From: Beroe ovata
Taxonomy: Eukaryota > Ctenophora > Nuda > Beroida > Beroidae
DNA length: 29,604 bases
NCBI GenBank assembly: GCA_946803715.1
Contig: CAMPET010000384.1
Span: forward strand, 21,149 to 50,752
Reading direction: 5' to 3'
The position numbers and the translations under genes were made by a program. The notes below the pieces were generated by a model, which saw only the letters and a program-made list of their open reading frames with translations, did not search any database and was not told the DNA's origin. Shown piece by piece: positions 6,817 through 28,541 of the stretch. Position 1 is the stretch's first letter. Each line of letters opens with the position of its first letter.

Positions 6817-7833
6817 ATGTCTGATTTGGGGGAAGCATGTATCATATCATGGTTCCTCCTGTCTGGTGTTATTTCTCTCGTTGGTAACTCAGTGGTCCTT
6901 ATTGCCACGTCGGTATTCGGGGCTATCAAATTAGACAGAATTGCTGTTGTTTTGATCACCAACTTAGCGGTTGCAGATCTCGGAATGTCATTAATTGCTA
7001 TACTGCCAAGTGTGGGATCAACTCTGGCAGGAAAGTGGATATACGGTACCTTCCTATGCTCAGCGACAAACTACCTAGAAAGTCTATTAGCTGCAGCTTC
7101 TATCGGACTAACGTGTGCACTGAGTGTGACCAAGTTAACTAGCTTGTTGTTCCCGTTCAAAGCAAGGACCCGTACCAAGAGGACCGGATACCTCATAGCA
7201 GGTGTTATTTGGAGCCTGTCTCTCTTGCCCATCATACCAGACATATTTGTCCCCAGGAAGATATCTTTCAATGAAATGATATTCAGGTGTGACACAGCAG
7301 AGGTTAAGAACATTGATATATGGCTGGATCCAATGAAGTCAACTATCCTTTGTTTCATTCCCTTTATTATCGTTACGGTGTGCACAATTTGGCTTATATT
7401 TTTTGTGCACAGAGTAAGAGGTCTACAGAAGCAAAGTGTAGTGACTGCAATTCTGATATCAGCTGTTTTCCTCATTTCATTCTTGCCAGTTGGAACACTG
7501 ATGTTGCTAGGAGACAGCTTTGATGGTAGCAACCGTGTTCATCGTATTCTCATGAAACTAGCTCTCTTCTCCCCATTCATGCACTTCATGGCAAACCCTC
7601 TCATCTACTTAGTTTCAATATCAAGTTTTAGAAACTTCTTTTCCTGCCGTAATCCCAAACTAGATCCCAGGGAACTAAGAAAGCAATGTTCAGTAACTTA
7701 TGGACTATCACAAAGTCGAGGCATTTCAGATTCAGAAGGAAAGTTGTCTGAGAGAGATACTGTTAAGATTAGAAGTATTCCAACTCTGCAGCGAAATCTA
7801 ACAATAGAGGATAAAATAGTTCCTGATAGGTAA
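6817..7833 (+). CDS. Rhodopsin-like (class A) G protein-coupled receptor, intronless
   Basis: 338 residues with seven hydrophobic segments (about 9-33, 43-65, 78-102, 124-144, 174-197, 207-230, 243-266). Class A marks are the GN of TM1 (N24), LAVAD in TM2 (D54), a cysteine at the top of TM3 (C81) that can pair with C158 in the second extracellular loop, and NPLIY in TM7 (260-264), followed by a basic FRNFFSCRNPK helix-8 region and a Ser/Thr-rich tail. Oddities: the DRY motif ending TM3 is replaced by TKL (105-107), there is no CWxP in TM6 (SFLP instead), and the extracellular N-terminus is only about 8-10 residues. The ATG follows a possible splice acceptor at 6808-6809, so an untranslated upstream exon is likely. 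Ligand unknown; orphan, lineage-specific receptors of this sort are common in invertebrates. Confidence 0.88.
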   Translation: MSDLGEACIISWFLLSGVISLVGNSVVLIATSVFGAIKLDRIAVVLITNLAVADLGMSLIAILPSVGSTLAGKWIYGTFLCSATNYLESLLAAASIGLTCALSVTKLTSLLFPFKARTRTKRTGYLIAGVIWSLSLLPIIPDIFVPRKISFNEMIFRCDTAEVKNIDIWLDPMKSTILCFIPFIIVTVCTIWLIFFVHRVRGLQKQSVVTAILISAVFLISFLPVGTLMLLGDSFDGSNRVHRILMKLALFSPFMHFMANPLIYLVSISSFRNFFSCRNPKLDPRELRKQCSVTYGLSQSRGISDSEGKLSERDTVKIRSIPTLQRNLTIEDKIVPDR

Positions 7834-9929: not shown

Positions 9930-12900
9930 ATGAGATTGGTAGTCTCTAACCTATTATTTCTGTTGCCAATTCTTGAGTCCTCTGATGTATCCATCTATAA
10001 TACGATATCTTTACTATAGTGAGTCAATTATTTCAGATGTAGTTTCCCTGTGCATATATTGTGACTGTCTCATGGTAATACACATTACAAAATAGTGATA
10101 ATATCATTAAAGAATTTTAATTCTTCAGTGACTCTACCATAGTTTCTGGAGAAACATGTTCAGATGAGCTCAGTCAGTATGATGCCATTCCTGTGATCAT
10201 ATCTGATCCTGGCAAAGATTATGATGTGGGAAGCCTTACTATCTTTCAGGATATTGGTGAATCTTTCTTGGCACTTGTCACAAGAAACTCTCTTTATGGT
10301 AAGATCAGTGTGCTCATAACATGGTTTATCAATTTCTGATTAAGAGTTGGGATGTATGCTGAAGTGAAACCTAATCAGATTTGTAGTTCCAGCTAGCCTT
10401 AAGTGTGTTTTGCTATATTTCAGATACAGTTAAATTGGTCAAGGATTTGTCTCCTATAGATTCAACAGGAAAAGTTTTGGCATTAATTGAATTTCAGCTC
10501 ATTTTATTCATTGTATTATTCATTGGAATCACAACTGCCGTAATGACTTTAACTGCTATCATCATCTATTGGGCCATGAAGTTAACAGGTAATCTTTGCT
10601 GACAGCTGTTTAGCAAACAAATCATCTAGGCCTGATAAAGTTAAAGTGCCTTTTTTGTACATTAAATCCACTCTTTAGGGAAAGTGAAGGAAGTGGAGTA
10701 TCAGAAACTTTCAGATAGCAAGGGTCCAAAACGTTTTCTGCTATCATTTCTTGCATGCGTCTTTTCTATTCTCATCCTGTAAGTTAATTCAAGTTGCCAG
10801 ATTCTATCTGCACGTGCCCCCTTGGGATAAAAGTGGGTAGACGAAATCTGGCAAAATTGATATTGACTTCGATAACCAGTATAGGTAATAAATACTCTGA
10901 CATAATCTGTTTGAATTATCTGATGTGCCAGGTTTGGCTGCTTAATATCATGGGTGGGAAATGCACACATAGCTCACAATATTGTTGAAGTTGCTGATCA
11001 TGTGAAGTGGACTGTGAACACTACATCAGACTATATGGATCAGGTGGAGTTGGTAAGTTTGCACTTGATCCAGGACAATGATTCAGTAAGACAATAAACT
11101 GAAAAATTAATGCGCCCCATTTTCTGGGCTAAATGTGCTTATCCTTCAGCAAATGAGAAGACTGTTGGTTGATCAGTATGAGCAAACATATCTGAATGTT
11201 CTCGAACAGGGAATAAATGATGCAATTCATGATGCATCCGCTCGGGTTTACCTCTACATTGCAGAAAATATTACTCAATCTTCAAATATCTCTGTCAGCC
11301 TTGCTAATAGTAAGTCGACTTGTTATGCCTTGAGAAAATAATTGGACTGAATTTCATGATCAACGATCATTTATTTGGTTGACCGCGCCCCCTCAGGTAT
11401 CACAAACGTTCAAAGGCCAGCAATGAACACTCTTGAGGGAAAGTACTTGGAGTATGAGAATAGTCTGTTCACTTATATCAGGGAAATTAAAGCAGCCAAG
11501 GAGTGTGTTGCTACAATAGACGCGTGGTGCAATGAGGTTGGCACTTGGCAGTCGTGGTTCTTGTAAATGAATAGCTTTCCCAATCTTTCTGATAGATTTT
11601 AAAGAGGGGGGAAAGGAGGTTGAATAATCCACGTAGTAACAAATTGTTGAATTCAGCGCCCAGGAACGTGCAATTCAGACAAATCTATTCCCGAGTCTTA
11701 TCTCAACTCTTTGGAGCCTGAAAAAGTGAGTTGTAACCAGGGTAACCATGAAAATATGACATGCTGTTTTGGATGTAAGAAATACCCTCAGTTTCGTGTT
11801 TCAGATGTTTTTCGAGAGTGTAGCTCAGGCGTCGCTTGATGCAACCAACTTTGTCGAGAACAGCGACATCACCCTTAATATCATGCTGGTTGGTTTATTG
11901 TGAAATCAACTTTTCAACCAAAAACGATGCGGTTTTATTACTGTATGTCCACTTAATATTGTCATGTCACTTTTCTCATCAGGCGTATTACAACGGCATA
12001 TATTTCCACAATGGTTCGCTTGCCAATACAAGTTTCCTGACCACTCCATTCGTGTAAGAGAGCATATCATGCAAGTAGGGTTGATAAACAAATAGATTGT
12101 TCGTTTAACTTTCATTTAAACCTAGAAATCACATTGCAGAGGAACCTGTTCGAAAACTGATCCAATAACGGGTGATGTTCTGGTAATCAACGGAGATTCT
12201 GCTCAAATCGAAGAAATTGTTAAATGCTATTCTGTTCTTGGTTGCCTAATTAGCAACACAATGACGAGACTTCTCACCCAAGTGTGTTGTATCGATGTTG
12301 ACGTCATCAAAACATACCTTGATTCTGTTGATGAGGATGAACCACCAGATCTGGATCGTTAGTTTTTTTATTTGAACGAAGTTTGAACGATTTGTGATTC
12401 ACATAGATATTAGAGATCTACTATCTACTGCTTCTACTATATAGAGTTGAATATAGATTGATTGATTCTCTGATCGGCATGAGCTAACGTACCAATTCAT
12501 GGTTCAGAATGTGGTCCGAAGGAGTTGTCTGACGAACATGGTGTGATTCAGGAGGGTGGACGCCAATCTCACTACACGGGTACCATGTCAAAAACCATCA
12601 CAAACAAGACCTGCGTGTCTTGGGGTGAGGTGGTGAAAGTAGCAGCCGCTACCCAGCTAGATGTGGATGTGTACTGGGACACATGGGCAGCTGCTAACGG
12701 ATATAGCGGATTGTCGGCTGTAGGACCAGAATCGGTGACCAACACATTCTGCCGGAATCCCAGCCCTGCAGTGGGGATCTATGGTACTGAGACGGAAGCT
12801 GGTGTCAAGCACCGAGCATGGTATGTGACATGGTGTGTGCATTCCCAGCCCACCTCCCGCCTACGTTATCACACTTCTCACCGACTCTCAGGTGTTTCAC

Positions 12901-15900
12901 GGACGCTGACACCATGAATTGGGAATATTGCAATGTACCATTCTGTCCCTCTGATGCCAGCTCAACTCTCGCCGCTATCGAGAGTGACCCGTCCTCACTT
13001 ATCTACCCTACCTGTCAGTCAGTGACAGAGAGAATGTATCCGGATGGTGTCACACCACTGACGTCGCATGATTTCACCATGTGGATTGCTTCCGAAAATG
13101 AACGACAGTGTAAGTTCATTAGTTTAAGTTCATTACAGTGAGAAGAGTGGATCATCTGCCAGTTTTTGAAGCTAAAAGCTGCAAGGTTTTCATATCTTTG
13201 TCTACAGTGAGAGATGAGACGTTGGAAGAATCATCGAGGGAAGCGATAGCACAATTTGATAAGATTAACAGCGATTTCGATGAGGCACAGTACGATATTC
13301 AGGAGTTGCAAGATTCGATCATGAGCCAATTAGTTAATTCCAATGGCGGTAAAATAAGGTGAGCTTTCCTATCTAGATTCTCGGCATAAAAGCAGAATTT
13401 CCCCTTTTGGAGGGTTGTACTTTCTTACTTTGTAATGATGAAATATCGTAATAAGTGATGTATTAGTTGAGTTGTAAATATCGTACCACAAAAACTCCGG
13501 TTCAGTTCAATAAGTGCTACTTGCTCATGCTGAAACATGTATATTCCAGAGACGTTGCCATAGCAACAGTTACTGGGGTGTGTCTGCTGACCGTGTGTAT
13601 CACTTTGACTGGACTGTGTGTCGGCTACTGTAACATGGGAGAGAATGTGCCCCCACATCGCAGGTGAAAACATTCGCTTAGTGTCAATGTAGTAGCGAAG
13701 TCAAAGGTTTCTTGTCGCATGATAACAATTTAGATCGTCAGATAAGTTGATTTGTTTTTGACTCACTGACTCACTTATCTGAATTAATGCCTTTGTAAAG
13801 TGATGATTCAATATCAATGGTGTCAAGAATCGTGACACCAGTGTTCGTCCCAGGTCAGCAGGCTGTAGTGCTGGTGGTAAACTTATCAAGACCTCCTCAC
13901 ACATTGCAGCTTTGTTAGCAGTTCTTAGCTTACTGAGTGCGACATCCTACTTCATTCCTGGCTCAGTGCTCAGTCTAGTCTGTACTGACTACAACAATGA
14001 TGACCTTTTCAAGGTACAGATAGAATCTTGATAAGGTTACTGCCACAGATTATTTGATTTTCCACATATCCCGGAAACTTATTTCACATTCAGTAAATAA
14101 ATTCAGCTGAGAATCACGGCCCCTGACACACAATCTATCACAGTTGCTCGATGACAAAGTCCTGGTGAATTACTCAGTGCTGGGCCGAGCCGTATTGGGC
14201 GAGGACAACTATAACTCTATGACACTCAAGAAGTTTCTACTCGACTGTAGGAAAGACCTTACTTTATGGGAGGCGCTCTCGTTGTCAAATGATCCCAACT
14301 ACGATTTGAAGAACTTACTTGATATAGAAGAGGTTAATACGTAAATCATGAAATGACTTGAACTATTTTGCTATGGTGATCATCACATAAGCACAATGTG
14401 CATTGTGCATTTCTGATTAAAAATGAACGACACACGTGTATTGTGCATCTGTTCGTGCACGTGACAAATGAACGTGTCTACCTCACCTCCACATTATCTC
14501 TCTCTCTCCCAGACTGTTGACATAGAGGGCACCTTTTCCCGTCTCCTGGAAGGAGAGTCAGTCGACTTCACCAGCTACCCCGTCTTTCCTGACAGTCTTC
14601 GGACATGGCTTCACTTTTGGAATGACAGTGACACGACAAACTTAGAATGGGATGCCCTTCTCGATAATGTGAGTATCAGTATGTTCAAAAAGTATCCCTG
14701 CAGTTGTTTTTATAGGCTATAGCAACATTTCGTACTACTCGTACAGTATAATTATTTCGTACCAATTTGTGTTTCCAGTGATCATCTAGACACATGCAGT
14801 TAGAGTAACAGTGTTAATGACAGCAGCTCTGATTTATAAAGGAGTGTCTTGTTCCAGGTGAGAACTCCATTTCTCGGACTGTCAAAGAACCAACTTGATG
14901 AGGACTCTGACGAGGTGGTCCTTATTAACGGGAAGTATCTATGTGATGCTTTCAAACCCTTTGGAGCTCAAGTTTCTGACCGATCCGGAGCTGCTTACGA
15001 GTGCAGTGTACGTATTATTGGGCATGGGAGATTCCACTTTACTTTTGCCACTTTGAGGCAGATCGAAAATTTGTAAAACTGTTCAGGCAAAGTTTAAAAG
15101 TTCACAGAAATCGGAATGTATGAAATGGGTGGAGGATTATGACTACTCCGTCACCTCTATCGTGAGTCTTTTTGTCCTTATCTAGGATTGAAAATGGATG
15201 TGTCTTCCTGTCTTGGCCATCACGAGGCAGCTATTTCAGAACATTCTCAAAGAGTCAGTTGAAGACGTGGTCAATGAGTGGGAAGGGTATGATGTCGGTG
15301 CCCTGATAGACAAATACGAGAAGACGAACACAAACCTACTGAATCTGGAGGGATCAGACAGCTTTTCGTTGAAGATCATCAGTGAGGTAGATCATTACAA
15401 GCTGTACGGTGTACATCGTACACTCACATTCATGAAAGCTGGAACTAGGCACTAGTAGGCATCAGTTAGTAATCTCTAGCTGCCAAACAACCTATTTTTC
15501 ATTCACAGCACTGATTGACAAAACTCTCATGTTCAGGCGTACAGATCAGATTGGCAGCCGGAGTTGATCAAGCAGACTGACTGTTTAGATTGGTATTTCA
15601 ATCATACCATGGACAAGGAAATTGCAACATGCTACCCGGTGTCAAATGTCATTGACACCACCCTACGGTACCTGTGTGACTACGCTCTGACCTCTGTGGT
15701 GAGTAGGTATTGACTGAGTTGACAACAAATCCTTGACAGTGTGACAACACCTCTACGCCTTCATGACACCACTTTGATCCAATGAAATCAGATATTTTCA
15801 CCTGAACTATAAAGTTTAAAGAACATTCCAGAAAACATTCACTTATATTGAGATGTAAGAAACATTTAGATGATTTTGGCATCAATGTTTCTCCTCTTTA

Positions 15901-16509
15901 TAATACACCTCAGAAACTGTGCTGGATATCTCAAGGACTCTTGGGACTTGTCCTCACACTATTTGTACTGGTAACAAGGAACCTGGCTAACTACTTCCTC
16001 AAGTATGAGAAGAGACACCCGATGGATATTACGAAAGAGGAGCAAATCGCCGCATTGTAAGTTTAACTCGATTAAACGGTACTTGTGTGATGTGTCCCCC
16101 AATTGGTTATGGAGAATGGAGGAAGGTTTTAATTTATCCCCCTCACAGCTAAAAAATTCTTGTCCCCTCCCCAATAAAACCCTTCTCCGTTATAGTCGCG
16201 GTCGTTCTTGTAGTTCAAATCATACCGAAATGGTAAAACTTTGAGTTGAATTAGTAGCATGAGCATTGAGCATATGATGTAAAAATATAATTCAACGCGA
16301 ACCACGTGTTTTTCATGTGTGTGTAAAGTGTGTGTGTGTGTACTGTGTGTGTATGTAGATAAGGTCAACGTTGAGACACCAGAAATGCTTTGTACTGCCA
16401 TGTGTAACTGGTCTCAATAGACACATCTCAATTTATTGTTGATGCCATGTACATCGTGTGATGAATTGACATCTGGCAACATAATTTTCATTTCAGCCAA
16501 CGCGCTTGA
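9930..16509 (+). CDS. prom: Prominin-family pentaspan membrane glycoprotein with an inserted kringle domain (24 exons)
   Basis: Exons: 9930-10018, 10129-10298, 10424-10588, 10679-10778, 10932-11052, 11150-11309, 11397-11536, 11657-11725, 11805-11888, 11983-12053, 12140-12357, 12508-12820, 12892-13109, 13208-13358, 13550-13663, 13854-14013, 14144-14332, 14513-14668, 14858-15007, 15087-15161, 15240-15386, 15537-15698, 15914-16056, 16497-16509. They sum to 3378 nt, 1125 residues, with GT-AG introns throughout. Signal peptide 1-17; TM1 about 111-135, TM2 161-183, TM3 692-716, TM4 744-768, TM5 1077-1095. Nine N-glycosylation sequons all fall in predicted outside loops. Family marks are the GCSAGG motif before TM4, the CTDYNNDDLFK block after it, LLDCRKDLTLWEAL, and ATCYPV before TM5. 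Human prominin-1 is 865 residues; the excess is largely a kringle at 464-585. Prominins bind cholesterol and sit on membrane protrusions. Weaker donors (GTTGGC, GTTAAT, GTTAGT) end exons 7, 17 and 11. Confidence 0.93.
12508..13109 (+). other. Kringle domain on prominin exons 12 and 13
   Basis: Translated across the 71-bp intron 12821-12891, exons 12 and 13 contain six cysteines in kringle order: C464, C498 (TCVSW), C544 (FCRNP), C568 (AWCFTD), C580 (WEYC) and C585 (VPFC). HYTGTMSKT matches the YxGxxSxT motif, and the C-terminal NWEYCNVPFC is nearly consensus. C4-C5 (12) and C5-C6 (5) spacings are those of ordinary kringles; the C1-C2, C2-C3 and C3-C4 loops are longer, so the domain is about 122 rather than 80 residues. 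The block is flanked by phase 1 introns on both sides and is 531 nt long, so it is a symmetrical cassette. About 50 residues after C585 on exon 13 are not kringle. Kringles bind proteins or lipids; the ligand here is unknown. Confidence 0.9.
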
Positions 16510-19103: not shown

Positions 19104-19639
19104 CCCAAGAATTCAACATTCTGCAGTAAATAGTCGACGCTTCTTGCTCAGCCCAAATCCAGCTGGCTCCTTCTTTGTCTTTGATGCCTGGTCTCAATAT
19201 TCTGGCGTTAAGCCAGCTGCCTTTCGAGGGTCTGAACTCTAATTTCTCCCAGTTTTCTTCTTCCAAGTTGGAACAAATCCAACTTTCGTCTGTCTTGTAC
19301 AACAGGTCTCCATGTTGTTGGAACACCTTCGACCAGCTCAACATTCCCATGAATTTCCGTGTCATCGCAGCGAAATGCTCCAACAGTAACGGTGGATATG
19401 GTCTCATTGCCAAGATCTTGAACTCTGATGGAGTCCATCAGAGTTCAAGATCTTGGCAATGAGACCATATCCACCGTTACTGTTGGAGCATTTCGCTGCG
19501 ATGACACGGAAATTCATGGGAATGTTGAGCTGGTCGAAGGTGTTCCAAGTCTGAGAGAAGGGGAGACTCAGCTGTTCATTGCCATCAACATAAAGTGCCA
19601 TTTTATCGTCACATGTTATAAGCAGCTGATGAGGTTGAC
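19104..19639 (-). pseudogene. Second lectin-like domain exon, interrupted by an inverted duplication
   Basis: The exon begins at 19639 after an acceptor (TTCGCAG|GT) and reads CDDKMALYVDGNEQ and FRVIAAKCSNSNGGYGLIAK, parallel to the domain at 17656-18126. After NSDG at 19434 the frame runs into an inverted copy of itself (19318-19432) and meets a stop at 19404. The rest of the domain (DESWICSN, WEKLEF, WIWAEQEASTIYCR) resumes at 19317 in the frame that the first part would continue, and ends at a phase 1 donor (TGGG|GTAACT, 19104). As assembled the exon is broken. No signal-peptide exon or N-terminal domain part was found upstream. It is either a damaged paralog or an intact exon with an assembly fault. 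Confidence 0.65.
19318..19548. repeat. Perfect 231-bp palindrome (115-bp arms, 1-bp centre)
   Basis: Arms 19318-19432 and 19434-19548 are exact reverse complements with a single base (19433) at the centre, so they would form a near-loopless hairpin. The right arm is the genuine domain-coding sequence on the minus strand; the left arm is the inverted extra copy. Confidence 0.95.
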
Positions 19640-20185: not shown

Positions 20186-21457
20186 TCTTCAACTCTTATA
20201 TAATGGACAGCGATAAATGTATGGAGAGCAATCATTTGCTCATCAATGACGTGAAGAATAACGCAAAACGGGCGTCAGTATATTATAATAAGGGGGCTAT
20301 TATCGGCCTCCATGACTAAGGAGCTATTATCAACCTTCGTCACTGGCACTTTACAGCTGATAGCACTTATCATAATTGACTTATTATACTAGATAAATGA
20401 GGAGAGACTGAGAGGTCACTTTATCATCTTGGACATCGAATTACAGAAGACAAAATACCAAGCATAGTATAACTGTAAGTGATGCGAATGCTAGCTGTAG
20501 GTGGATGAATCCAAGCTATGAATGATGAATAAGATCCCACACCCTTACGCGATCGTTTCATTGCTCAAGGTCATATGTCTACCATTTGAGTGTGAATAAT
20601 TCATCCTCTGGTAGCTCATTGTTTGTTATAGTGTGCCCCCTGCAGTAGTCATGGTTTTATTCATGATGTTGTGTAGTTGGTGTCGGTTCTAATGTGTACC
20701 ACTCCCATCTGACCACCCAATGGAAACGTCAGCGTCCTCAGATATGTTTAAACATTGAGATTGATGTTATAAAGTAGCAGGTCCCAATGATTCCTCTATA
20801 ACTGTCAGAGTGATATTAATTATAAGCTGTTATGGCGACTGGAAATCCCAAGCTTTGTCCGATAACTAGGAGCTGGCTTAAGAAAATGATTATTCATTAT
20901 ATCATAGGAGATATGCTGGAAAATGATAATGATATGACTGACGCCTACAATAATCATTAGTGATCAAAATAAATGAATGTAGTCAGTGACCCAATATTAA
21001 ATCCTATTATTCAGCAATTCAAACCTAAACAGCAATTATAAATGTAGACTGTATAAAAACCCAAATTCCACAAAGATGATGTAAAGAAAACTTTTTCTAT
21101 GGAAGTATGATGTTAGATATTGTACAATTTCTCAAATAGTCAAAACGAACATACGTGGACGTGTTGTTAGAGAAACAAACAATGAACAGTGAAAAGAACA
21201 ATAAAATCCTCCTGTTCTTCTTTACCAGAAAGCACCCATATCATCATTTTAAAGGAGGGCAGTGTGGTATAATAGAGAGGTCTAAATAGTTTTATACTTA
21301 TTCCTCTTGGAATCAGCAACACATGAGAAAACGCATCTTATGTTAAATTAATAAAGGAATAATCTTACTGAAGATGTAATGAATGTGGAGTAACCGTATG
21401 TGTACACATGAAGGGAAAAGGCGGAAATGAAAATAGTTCGACGATTGTTAGTAGCAA
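20186..21457 (+). repeat. 1.27-kb direct repeat, copy 1
   Basis: Matches 23214-24484 almost base for base, with scattered substitutions and small indels (for example GTTATAGTG versus ATCATAGGGG near 20626, and AAGAAAACT versus AACTAAACT near 21083). It ends exactly at the N at 21458. No coding capacity is seen. Confidence 0.95.
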
Positions 21458-23213: not shown

Positions 23214-24484
23214 TCTTCAACTCTTATATAATGGACAGCGATAAATGTATGGAGAGCAATCATTTGCTCATCAATGACGTGAAGAATAACGCAAAACGGG
23301 CGTCAGTATATTATAATAAGGGGGCTATTATCGGCCTCCATGACTAAGGAGCTATTATCAACCTTCGTCACTGGCACTTTACAGCTGATAGCACTTATCA
23401 TAATTGACTTATTATACTAGATAAATGAGGAGAGACTGAGAGGTCACTTTATCATCTTGGACATCGAATTACAGAAGACAAAATACCAAGCATAGTATAA
23501 CTGTAAGTGATGCGAATGCTAGCTGTAGGTGGATGAATCCAAGCTATGAATGATGAATAAGATCCCACACCCTTACGCGATCGTTTCATTGCTCAAGGTC
23601 ATATGTCTACCATTTGAGTGTGAATAATTCATCCTCTGGTAGCTCATTGTTTATCATAGGGGTGCCCCCTGCAGTAGTCATGGTTTTATTCATGATGTTG
23701 TGTAGTTGGTGTCGGTTCTAACGTGTACCACTCCCATCTGACCACCCAATGGAAACGTCAGCGTCCTCAGATATGTTTAAACATTGAGATTGATGTTATA
23801 AAGTAGCAGGTCCCAATGATTCCTCTATAACTGTCAGAGCGATATTAATAAGCTGTTATGGCGACTGGAAGTCCCAAGCTTTGTCCGATAACTAGGAGCT
23901 GGCTTAAGAAAATGATTATTCATTATATCATAGGAATATGCTGGAAAATGATAATGATATGACTGACGCCTACAATAATCATTAGTGATCAAAATAAATG
24001 AATGTAGTCAGTGACCCAATATTAAATCCTATTATTCAGCAATTCAAACCTAAACAGCAATTATAAATGTAGACTGTATAAAAACCCAAATTCCACAAAG
24101 ATGATGTAAACTAAACTCTTTCTATGGGAGTATGATGTTAGATATTGTACAATTTCTCAAATAGTCAAAACGAACATACGTGGACGTGTTGTTAGAGAAA
24201 CAAACAATGAACAGTGAAAAGAACAATAAAAACCTCCTGTTCTTCTTTACCAGAAAAAACACCCATATCATCATTTTAAAGGAGGGCAGTGTGGTATAAT
24301 AGAGAGGTCTAAATAGTTTTATACTTATTCCTCTTGGAATCAGCAACACATGAGAAAACGCATCTTATGTTAAATTAATAAAGGAATAATCTTACTGAAG
24401 ATGTAATGAATGTGGAGTAACCGTATGTGTACACATGAAGGGAAAAGGCGGAAATGAAAATAGTTCGACGATTGTTAGTAGCAA
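23214..24484 (+). repeat. 1.27-kb direct repeat, copy 2
   Basis: Near-identical to 20186-21457 (offset about 3028 bp). It begins immediately after the N at 23213, whereas copy 1 has its own flanking sequence on the left. After GTTAGTAGCAA (24484) the sequence continues where copy 1 stopped at an N. Confidence 0.95.
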
Positions 24485-26767: not shown

Positions 26768-28012
26768 TTATTTCCTAGCAAGTTGTGAGGTGTCGCACGT
26801 TTGATCTGATTTGGTTGCCCTGGCAACCCAACCCAAACTCTTCCTTATGACATCTGGAGTGAGGAGGATGAATATCACTGGATTTGCCGCGGAGAAGATA
26901 ATGGCTGTCATAGAACACGCGCCGAAGTTGAACCAAGCCTCCCACTCAGTGTTGACAGTGACGCTTTCTGCTCCAACCTGAACTTTCTGGGCATTAGACT
27001 GGACAATTAATCCGATTATCTGCATGACAACGAAAACAATACTCCCAAGGTTAGTCACCAGAATCTTGACACTGCCGCGTTTTGTGGCTGATTTCATGCC
27101 ATGATGCCCCACTTTGATTTGCTTGGGACGCTTGATGAGAACGATAACAGTACCAGCAGATGCAGCTATACCCAGCATCTGTAAAAACACTGGGACGGAG
27201 AACACGGTGCTTATTTGCAGGAGACGGACGTGTTTCCTCATTGAGTCAGGGAAACAGAATGGGTTATCTGTCCACACCGCCATGACTTGTACCACCCATA
27301 CAGAGGGATGGGCAGATCCGAATATGCTGTATACCTGCAATGAGAGCGAGGCTAAGGTCGCAAACAGGATCACTCCAATCACGGCCTCCTTATTGAGTGG
27401 TCTGAAGGGATGTCTGACCTGGTACCACCTACAAATGGCCATTATACTAGTCACGACAAGAGAGGAAACGATGAGTCCCAGCACCCCGACACTCATGACC
27501 TTCTCCTGGAGGGACACGTGCAAACCCACACAGTTCCAGTAGTTGCTATCGATACAGGAGAAGTTGCTAGGAAGCGAAGCAGGGTCTGGTACACTAAGTC
27601 CAGCAACAAGGAGAATATGTGCTGGTAAAAGAATGCAGGTCAGCACATCCACCACACTCAGGACTTGGAACAGGATGTTTGCAATGGATCGGGTGCGACG
27701 AAGTCTGTTATACCGGAACACCACGGGGTTTAACAGAGTGGAAGTGACCATAGCAATCGAGATTGCGATAAGAACCACTATCTCTACGGGATTGAGATCA
27801 CCGTCGTTGAAATTCAGCATGGAACGTCTAGTGTCTGGAAATGAAGTGAAGCCATAATTTTTATATTTGGCCAACGCTGAAGATGGATTAAAGTTCATTT
27901 TGCCAACTGATGAATAAGAATATGAACTTAATAAACTGATGGCCAAATATACCATAGGGGTGCTATAATAACCATTGAGAGCAAGGCTGCAAGAAATATC
28001 ATGGAACTTCAT
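26768..28012 (-). CDS. Rhodopsin-like (class A) G protein-coupled receptor, atypical motifs
   Basis: From the first ATG at 28012 this gives 414 residues. A likelier start is the ATG at 27898, or an exon start at 27834 after an acceptor-like TTTCCAG; the sequence before the first helix shows no clear domain. Seven hydrophobic segments follow. Marks are STLLNPVVF in TM1, SVVDVLTC in TM2 (the conserved Asp), cysteines before TM3 (YWNC) and in the second outside loop (NPFC), and NPVIF in place of NPxxY in TM7. DRY is replaced by CRW followed by YQVRHPF. A sequon (NFS) lies in the first outside loop. The tail ends in a short Ser/Thr and basic segment. The coding part is intronless and lies antisense to, and just downstream of, the known exons of the coiled-coil gene. 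Ligand unknown. Confidence 0.85.
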   Translation of the reverse strand: MKFHDISCSLALNGYYSTPMVYLAISLLSSYSYSSVGKMNFNPSSALAKYKNYGFTSFPDTRRSMLNFNDGDLNPVEIVVLIAISIAMVTSTLLNPVVFRYNRLRRTRSIANILFQVLSVVDVLTCILLPAHILLVAGLSVPDPASLPSNFSCIDSNYWNCVGLHVSLQEKVMSVGVLGLIVSSLVVTSIMAICRWYQVRHPFRPLNKEAVIGVILFATLASLSLQVYSIFGSAHPSVWVVQVMAVWTDNPFCFPDSMRKHVRLLQISTVFSVPVFLQMLGIAASAGTVIVLIKRPKQIKVGHHGMKSATKRGSVKILVTNLGSIVFVVMQIIGLIVQSNAQKVQVGAESVTVNTEWEAWFNFGACSMTAIIFSAANPVIFILLTPDVIRKSLGWVARATKSDQTCDTSQLARK

Positions 28013-28541
28013 TGGGCCTTGCCACAAGCAAAGCAAGTATACGGGGTACGGCCCCAAAACAACTCATTTTAAGAAACTCTTTAGATTTATGCTCTCAAAT
28101 CTCATCATTTAATTGAAAGTCTCAAATTTGCAGTCCCGCAAGGCGGAGGTGTGATCTCTATCAAATCTTGGAGGCTTTCCTGTTTGCTCTCACAATCAAT
28201 AGGTTTCTTAAACCGTAGCAGTGGCCTGGGGGCATCAAAAAATAACGCATGGTGCTGAATTTTTAAAAGAATTTCTCCTTTCCTACTAGGATATGATATG
28301 TAAAGCCCATATTGCACATGAATACTGGGTTCAGGCATTCAACTTCGTGTGATTATCGGAGCGACCTCCGCTGAACCAAATATAATATAGATATTATTAT
28401 ACTGGCAACTACGAATTAAGTTCTTAATCCATAATTCATATTGTATAAAAACAGCAACAGAGACAGTCACAGTCCCGTGTAGTTGTACATCAGGGGCTGG
28501 CAAGCCCCCCGCGGCATCTGTAGCTAATGTTGAGCGTGCGA

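Follow-up and report, generated by a model that had tools for sequence, protein, structure and literature searches.

Prominins organise membrane protrusions and are in wide use as markers of stem cells; to our knowledge few of their extracellular ligands are known. Kringles are small folds, many of which bind ligands. They are class 1-1 modules, and their shuffling is more familiar in the context of secreted proteases, growth factors and receptors. We describe here a gene of the ctenophore Beroe ovata in which a pair of kringle-coding exons lies in frame within the first large loop of a predicted five-span prominin. The gene is located in a stretch of 29,604 nucleotides (positions 21,149 to 50,752 of contig CAMPET010000384.1, assembly GCA_946803715.1). 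This whole stretch is called the window below, and coordinates are those of the window.

Prominins have been described as proteins of cholesterol-rich protrusions and shed vesicles. The passages drawn on here list two large extracellular loops of >300 residues and two cytoplasmic loops of <25 residues as criteria of the family, put the extracellular domains at about 280 residues, and give Trp795 as nearly invariant in span 5 (PMC11405016). In the sections used of a second review, the loop between spans 2 and 3 is named EC2, EC1 being the N-terminal domain, and fly Prominin works via a secreted partner, Eyes shut (PMC10967083). Class 1-1 modules are, in excerpts of a third source, typical exon-shuffling units in animals (PMC8001218). 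The reading that we prefer, at a probability of roughly four in five, is that exon shuffling, at an early date, placed a pair of kringle exons in a phase 1 intron of a five-span prominin gene, and that the kringle tethers or spaces protrusions via a ligand.

The prominin gene

The gene was rebuilt from the sequence as 23 exons on the + strand (9930-16060) that encode a 1125-residue protein. All 22 introns are GT-AG, and in the same 23-exon model one continuous open frame leads to a TAA stop at 16058-16060. An earlier sequence-only reading of the window had proposed a kringle cassette in a complete prominin gene, and the model reproduces its 1125-residue product exactly. The full product matches the Pfam Prominin profile (PF05478) with an E-value of 3e-33 (115.4 bits, cut-off 34.3). 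The two sides of the cassette also match when searched alone: the part before it with E=2.4e-11 (residues 85-272, profile 64-246) and the part after it with E=1.6e-23 (best stretch residues 658-916, profile 382-637).

Exon 1 (9930-10018) supplies the start codon and a hydrophobic, signal-peptide-like N-terminus (residues 4-22). Five hydrophobic spans, defined by Kyte-Doolittle peaks only, follow in 2+2+1 order at residues 104-140, 162-180, 692-710, 738-769 and 1079-1097. Spans 1 and 2, seen in hydropathy and in the Pfam Prominin match, are encoded by exons 3-5 (10424-11052 with introns). For the first large extracellular loop, the N-terminal part is encoded by exons 6-11 (11150-12357 with introns), the last of which stops at 12357 in phase 1. 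On the other side of the cassette, exon 14 (13208-13358) covers the stretch up to span 3, in which the prominin profile restarts at residue 658. Spans 3 and 4 (the latter placed at 745-763 in the exon assignment) are encoded by exons 15-16 (13550-14013 with intron), and the bulk of the second large extracellular loop, about 309 residues, by exons 17-22 (14144-15698 with introns). Exon 23 (15914-16060) encodes span 5 and a short cytoplasmic tail. Trp1081 sits where span 5 begins and by eye resembles human Trp795. The first large loop, between spans 2 and 3, has 507 residues, or 330 without the cassette; the cytoplasmic loops have about 21 and 28 residues, values that depend on the span ends. 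By its predicted product, this is a real prominin-type gene, complete and five-span.

The kringle cassette

The cassette consists of exons 12 and 13, which together have 531 nt, or 177 codons (residues 463-639). They are joined in frame to exons 11 and 14, with intron phases 1, 2 and 1, and their removal leaves the reading frame intact. The cassette is in the large loop between spans 2 and 3, as hydropathy and the flanking prominin matches both place it, and it ends ~50 residues ahead of span 3. Exon 12 (12508-12820, phase 1 to phase 2) encodes the first part of the kringle, with C1-C3 and the motifs YTGTMSKT, CVSW and FCRNP. Intron 12 (12821-12891, 71 nt, phase 2, 55% GC) splits the Trp codon of WCFT. 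Exon 13 (12892-13109, phase 2 to phase 1) encodes the end of the kringle (WCFTDADTMNWEYCNVPFC) and a tail of 54 residues. All six kringle cysteines are present in the spliced product (C464, C498, C544, C568, C580 and C585), as are the remaining motifs WCFTDAD, NWEYC and VPFC. The sizes, phases, cysteines and motifs claimed for the cassette in the sequence-only reading were thus recovered from the rebuilt gene.

The kringle assignment is supported by several searches. Pfam Kringle (PF00051) matches the cassette alone with E=1.9e-6 (28.5 bits) and the cassette within the full protein with E=2.4e-4 (21.8 bits). Against PDB, phmmer matched the cassette to plasminogen (E=5.1e-7, the whole five-kringle chain) and to a single kringle of apolipoprotein(a) (2feb, E=2e-6). 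We also built a profile from the B. ovata genome itself (77.8 Mb, 534 contigs), using 31 kringles drawn from 28 fetched kringle regions (8 + 20) and not from all 80 matches in that genome. The cassette scored 27.1 bits against it, and the maximum among shuffled sequences (5000 shuffles, 4762 with a reported score) was 12.0. An hhalign comparison with the 31-kringle alignment (29 sequences used) gave a probability of 97.1 and E=5.8e-11, with 29% identity over 73 columns. The coding frame has no stops in either exon, compared with 3-6 in the other four forward frames. We rejected a chance origin of the kringle likeness on the stop-free frame and the margin over the best shuffle. A kringle gene nested in the prominin was also rejected: reading back in frame from the kringle core of exon 12, the preceding stop is reached without an ATG.

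The cassette is, on these alignments, an expanded, divergent kringle. The C4-C5 and C5-C6 loop lengths are within the range of 30 sibling kringles of the genome, and both kringle Trp residues (567 and 577) are retained. The lysine-binding features of plasminogen kringle 4 are a DxD acidic pair after CRNP, an Arg before WEYC and two Trp. The cassette reads CRNPSPAV, without the DxD pair, and has NWEYC in place of RWEYC; the position before WEYC is Asn in the cassette and Arg in plasminogen kringle 4. With the acidic pair absent and Asn before WEYC, a classical lysine-binding role is not expected, and the kringle is probably not of the classical lysine-binding type. D-x-[DE] after CRNP occurs in 7/31 sibling kringles, so the absence of DxD is common in the B. 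ovata genome; an Asp directly after CRNx is found in 22/31.

We observed a 14-nt tandem duplication across the exon 13 donor (13107-13134; AGTGTAAGTTCATT / AGTTTAAGTTCATT). It is possibly an old insertion scar.

Origin of the cassette

Exon shuffling is the best reading of how the cassette arose. Both outer borders are in phase 1 and the internal intron is in phase 2, so that the cassette is a class 1-1 module. Its composition also stands out in part. The span 12508-13109, intron included, has 52.3% GC, while other non-overlapping 602-bp stretches of the gene reach at most 44.7%; 2% of all 602-bp stretches in the window attain 52.3%. The GC content of intron 12 compares with 29-45% in the other 21 introns of the gene. 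The GC content at third codon positions (GC3) of the cassette is 0.525, which is not unusual: it is 0.39 before and 0.53 after the cassette, and 22% of equal-length native stretches attain the cassette's value. Thus, only the GC content of the whole span, with its intron, is a sign of foreign origin, and a weak one.

We compared the cassette with split kringles elsewhere in the genome. Twenty fetched regions gave 22 candidate pairs, 18 of which were resolved, with junctions chosen by a simple consensus score; two of the resolved siblings (C336 and C457) are near copies. The internal intron is in phase 2 in 14/18 of these siblings (C336, C457, C21, C61 and others), as in the cassette, in phase 1 in three and in phase 0 in one. 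It precedes CRNP/CRDP in all 18. A phase 1 upstream acceptor is among the two best candidates in 17/18, and the best downstream donor, identified at 12 of the 18 loci, is in phase 1 each time; the remaining six yielded no donor. The nearest kringles of the genome share 41-43% identity with the cassette over about 28 residues. A recent donor in the same genome was rejected on this identity, and we read the low values as an insertion that is old or that came from a divergent kringle. The proposal of exon shuffling thus stands on the 1-1 phases, the GC content of the span and the internal phase of the siblings, while no donor was traceable and the internal intron lies at a different place from theirs.

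Weighing the reading

A number of observations count against shuffling of a functional kringle into a prominin. Both Kringle scores are under Pfam's curated cut-off of 34.3 bits, and routine annotation may for this reason miss the domain. The C2-C3 loop of the cassette is 46 residues and the C3-C4 loop 24, compared with 14-34 and 11-14 in the 30 siblings, the C2-C3 lengths of which are approximate where kringles were joined at match ends. No match was found for the 54 residues after the sixth cysteine (586-639), which include one more cysteine, C608. The prominin profile finds nothing in residues 273-657, cassette included, and it also fails to match the loop searched alone without its cassette, so that the place of the insertion along the profile is an interpolation. 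The internal intron, inside the WCFT Trp codon, differs in position from that of all 18 resolved siblings, in a sample biased towards two-match kringles split near the profile middle, from which splits at this Trp would escape. None of the 80 genome-wide Kringle matches is at the cassette locus, and a genome-wide Prominin search did not recover the 23-exon gene. We attribute both misses to exon-by-exon scoring, which drops short exons. Among the gene's 22 acceptors, that of intron 13 scores lowest. Finally, the inclusion of exons 12 and 13 in the mRNA and its conservation are predictions, as is a ligand-binding role of the kringle.

The alternative that survives best is that most transcripts skip exons 12 and 13 and encode an ordinary prominin, the kringle form being minor or cell-type-specific. 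The idea overlaps with the shuffling reading, and we consider it unlikely. A cassette of 531 nt with matching phase 1 borders could be skipped without loss of frame, and the prominin profile matches both flanks without the kringle. The splice sites speak on both sides. The acceptor at 12508 has the highest score between 12100 and 13400 and is also the top one among the 22 introns of the gene. In the same interval, the donor at 13109 comes second and that at 12820 third; within the gene they rank 8 and 13, respectively. The acceptors of exons 13 and 14, however, rank 18 and 22, and with weakly ranked sites around the cassette alternative use is possible. A further donor lies 12 nt downstream (after 12832); its score is close to that of 12820, and its use would add four residues in frame. 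Against a dispensable cassette are the strong acceptor at 12508, the rank of the exon 13 donor and the retention of six cysteines and the core motifs, which suggests selection.

We think it very improbable that the kringle exons come from another gene through an assembly misjoin, or are a non-functional fragment decaying in an intron. The jump in GC content at the cassette could be expected of either, but the boundaries are in-phase splice sites, the coding frame is stop-free in both exons, the kringle core is not preceded by an ATG of its own, and a genome search for the cassette turned up no further copy, with 41% over 29 residues as the runner-up match. That a native prominin loop converged on a kringle-like cysteine pattern is scarcely credible, for although the expanded loops, the non-kringle tail and the scores under the Pfam cut-off would suit it, the agreement is at the level of motifs over 73 profile columns, PDB kringles are matched at E=2e-6 to 5.1e-7, and no kringle match at E<=0.01 is found in the genome's single-exon prominin.

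The shuffling reading remains the one that we favor. The modelled gene structure, the in-frame splice sites, the homology of both parts and the position of the cassette are evident from the DNA itself; what follows from them is more conditional. A kringle-bearing exon pair would have entered, long ago, a phase 1 intron in the first large loop of a prominin. If the gene is transcribed and spliced as modelled, with the cassette included, the product would enter the secretory pathway. The kringle would then fold independently, held by disulfides (C1-C6, C2-C4 and C3-C5 in the kringle fold), and project from the outer face as a knob that does not disturb the stalk into span 3. Set on a microvillus, a cilium or a shed vesicle, the knob could bind a protein or matrix ligand and so tether or space the protrusions. 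This would parallel fly Prominin and secreted Eyes shut, and since the fly protein acts through that partner, one can reasonably expect an extracellular ligand. A protrusion protein would thus probably gain an additional module for binding that faces outward. The ligand-binding module of the sequence-only reading is partly supported: a kringle is present, the acidic pair typical of lysine-binding kringles is absent, and the binding itself is something we infer.

Related genes and database searches

The 80 kringle matches found with the genome-wide Kringle profile search comprise whole domains and halves. On four contigs (C20, C18, C122 and C199) we noted long open frames, 783-1212 codons in length. 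Each contains two to four kringles, and together they apparently form an intronless kringle family.

The genome-wide Prominin search found only one gene, a second prominin on contig C242 (L011:3386-5887), and further multi-exon prominins may escape it; the family search also scored, below the cut-off, in one archaeal control. The second prominin is intronless and encodes 833 residues. By eye, it is without a Trp where span 5 begins. The whole kringle-prominin protein searched against the genome gave 24 matches, 23 in its own gene and a weak one (E=0.0081) in this paralog.

Other gene families of the genome fit its ctenophore origin. Innexin gave 14 matches, 13 of them over the cut-off, and the nuclear-receptor DNA-binding domain gave none, in a search that produced no signal anywhere; homeodomain, used as a positive control, gave 87. 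Sponges and placozoans are not known to have innexins, and ctenophores are not known to have that DNA-binding domain. No COX1 was found in the genome.

A PDB search with the cassette-free product found no match. In a protein database, no match at E<=0.01 was found for the whole product among the 8000 candidates sharing most words with it, and none at E<=1 for the cassette among 757 candidates. These searches missed even ordinary prominins, and we conclude nothing from them about other animals.

Other features of the window

A MULE-type DNA transposon occupies positions 1-2981, with a MULE transposase domain (open frame 675-1517, - strand), a FLYWCH domain (1649-2314, - strand) and inverted terminal repeats (1-140 and 2841-2980) that are 97.9% identical. 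A single-exon rhodopsin-family receptor is encoded at 6817-7833 on the + strand (Pfam 7tm_1, E=8.2e-24). Downstream of the prominin gene, a near-perfect 231-bp palindrome (19318-19548, 99.6% self-complementary) is either natural or an assembly fold-back. A direct duplication of 1.27 kb (20186-21457 and 23214-24484) is 98.5% identical, and no gene was recognised in it. A 429-residue open frame (26768-28057, - strand) has several stretches that look hydrophobic by eye and no Pfam match at E<=0.01. An Rfam search of the window gave no match.

Comparison with known systems

The sequence-only reading knew of no described prominin with a kringle, and we found no description of one in the openly available literature searched on prominins paired with kringles and on prominins of early animals and invertebrates; an unremarked entry in a domain architecture database such as InterPro may exist. 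We read the locus as a new domain architecture within a known family. A wider proposal, which we put forward tentatively and regard as somewhat doubtful, is that it represents a new, lineage-specific class of prominins, fixed in one early-branching animal lineage, in which a kringle built into the stalk is essential and targets the protrusion or shed vesicle to matrix or a ligand. The natural fusion shows a site at which the loop can accommodate a whole domain, and it suggests that binding on the outside belongs to the loop's role. It would also be an example of a class 1-1 module shuffled into a multi-span membrane protein, here in a ctenophore.

Compared with described prominins (CD133/PROM1, PROM2 and fly Prominin), the B. 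ovata product has the same 2+2+1 spans and a broadly similar layout of large extracellular and short cytoplasmic loops, the second cytoplasmic loop lying near the 25-residue limit, depending on the span ends. It differs in carrying a kringle and in its longer first large loop (507 residues, or 330 without the cassette, against about 280). Compared with plasminogen-type kringles (plasminogen, apolipoprotein(a), HGF and ROR), the cassette has the same six cysteines, the YxGT, CxxW, CRNP, WCFT and WEYC motifs and the class 1-1 organisation. It differs from them in its setting, a multi-span membrane protein and not a protease, growth factor or single-span receptor.

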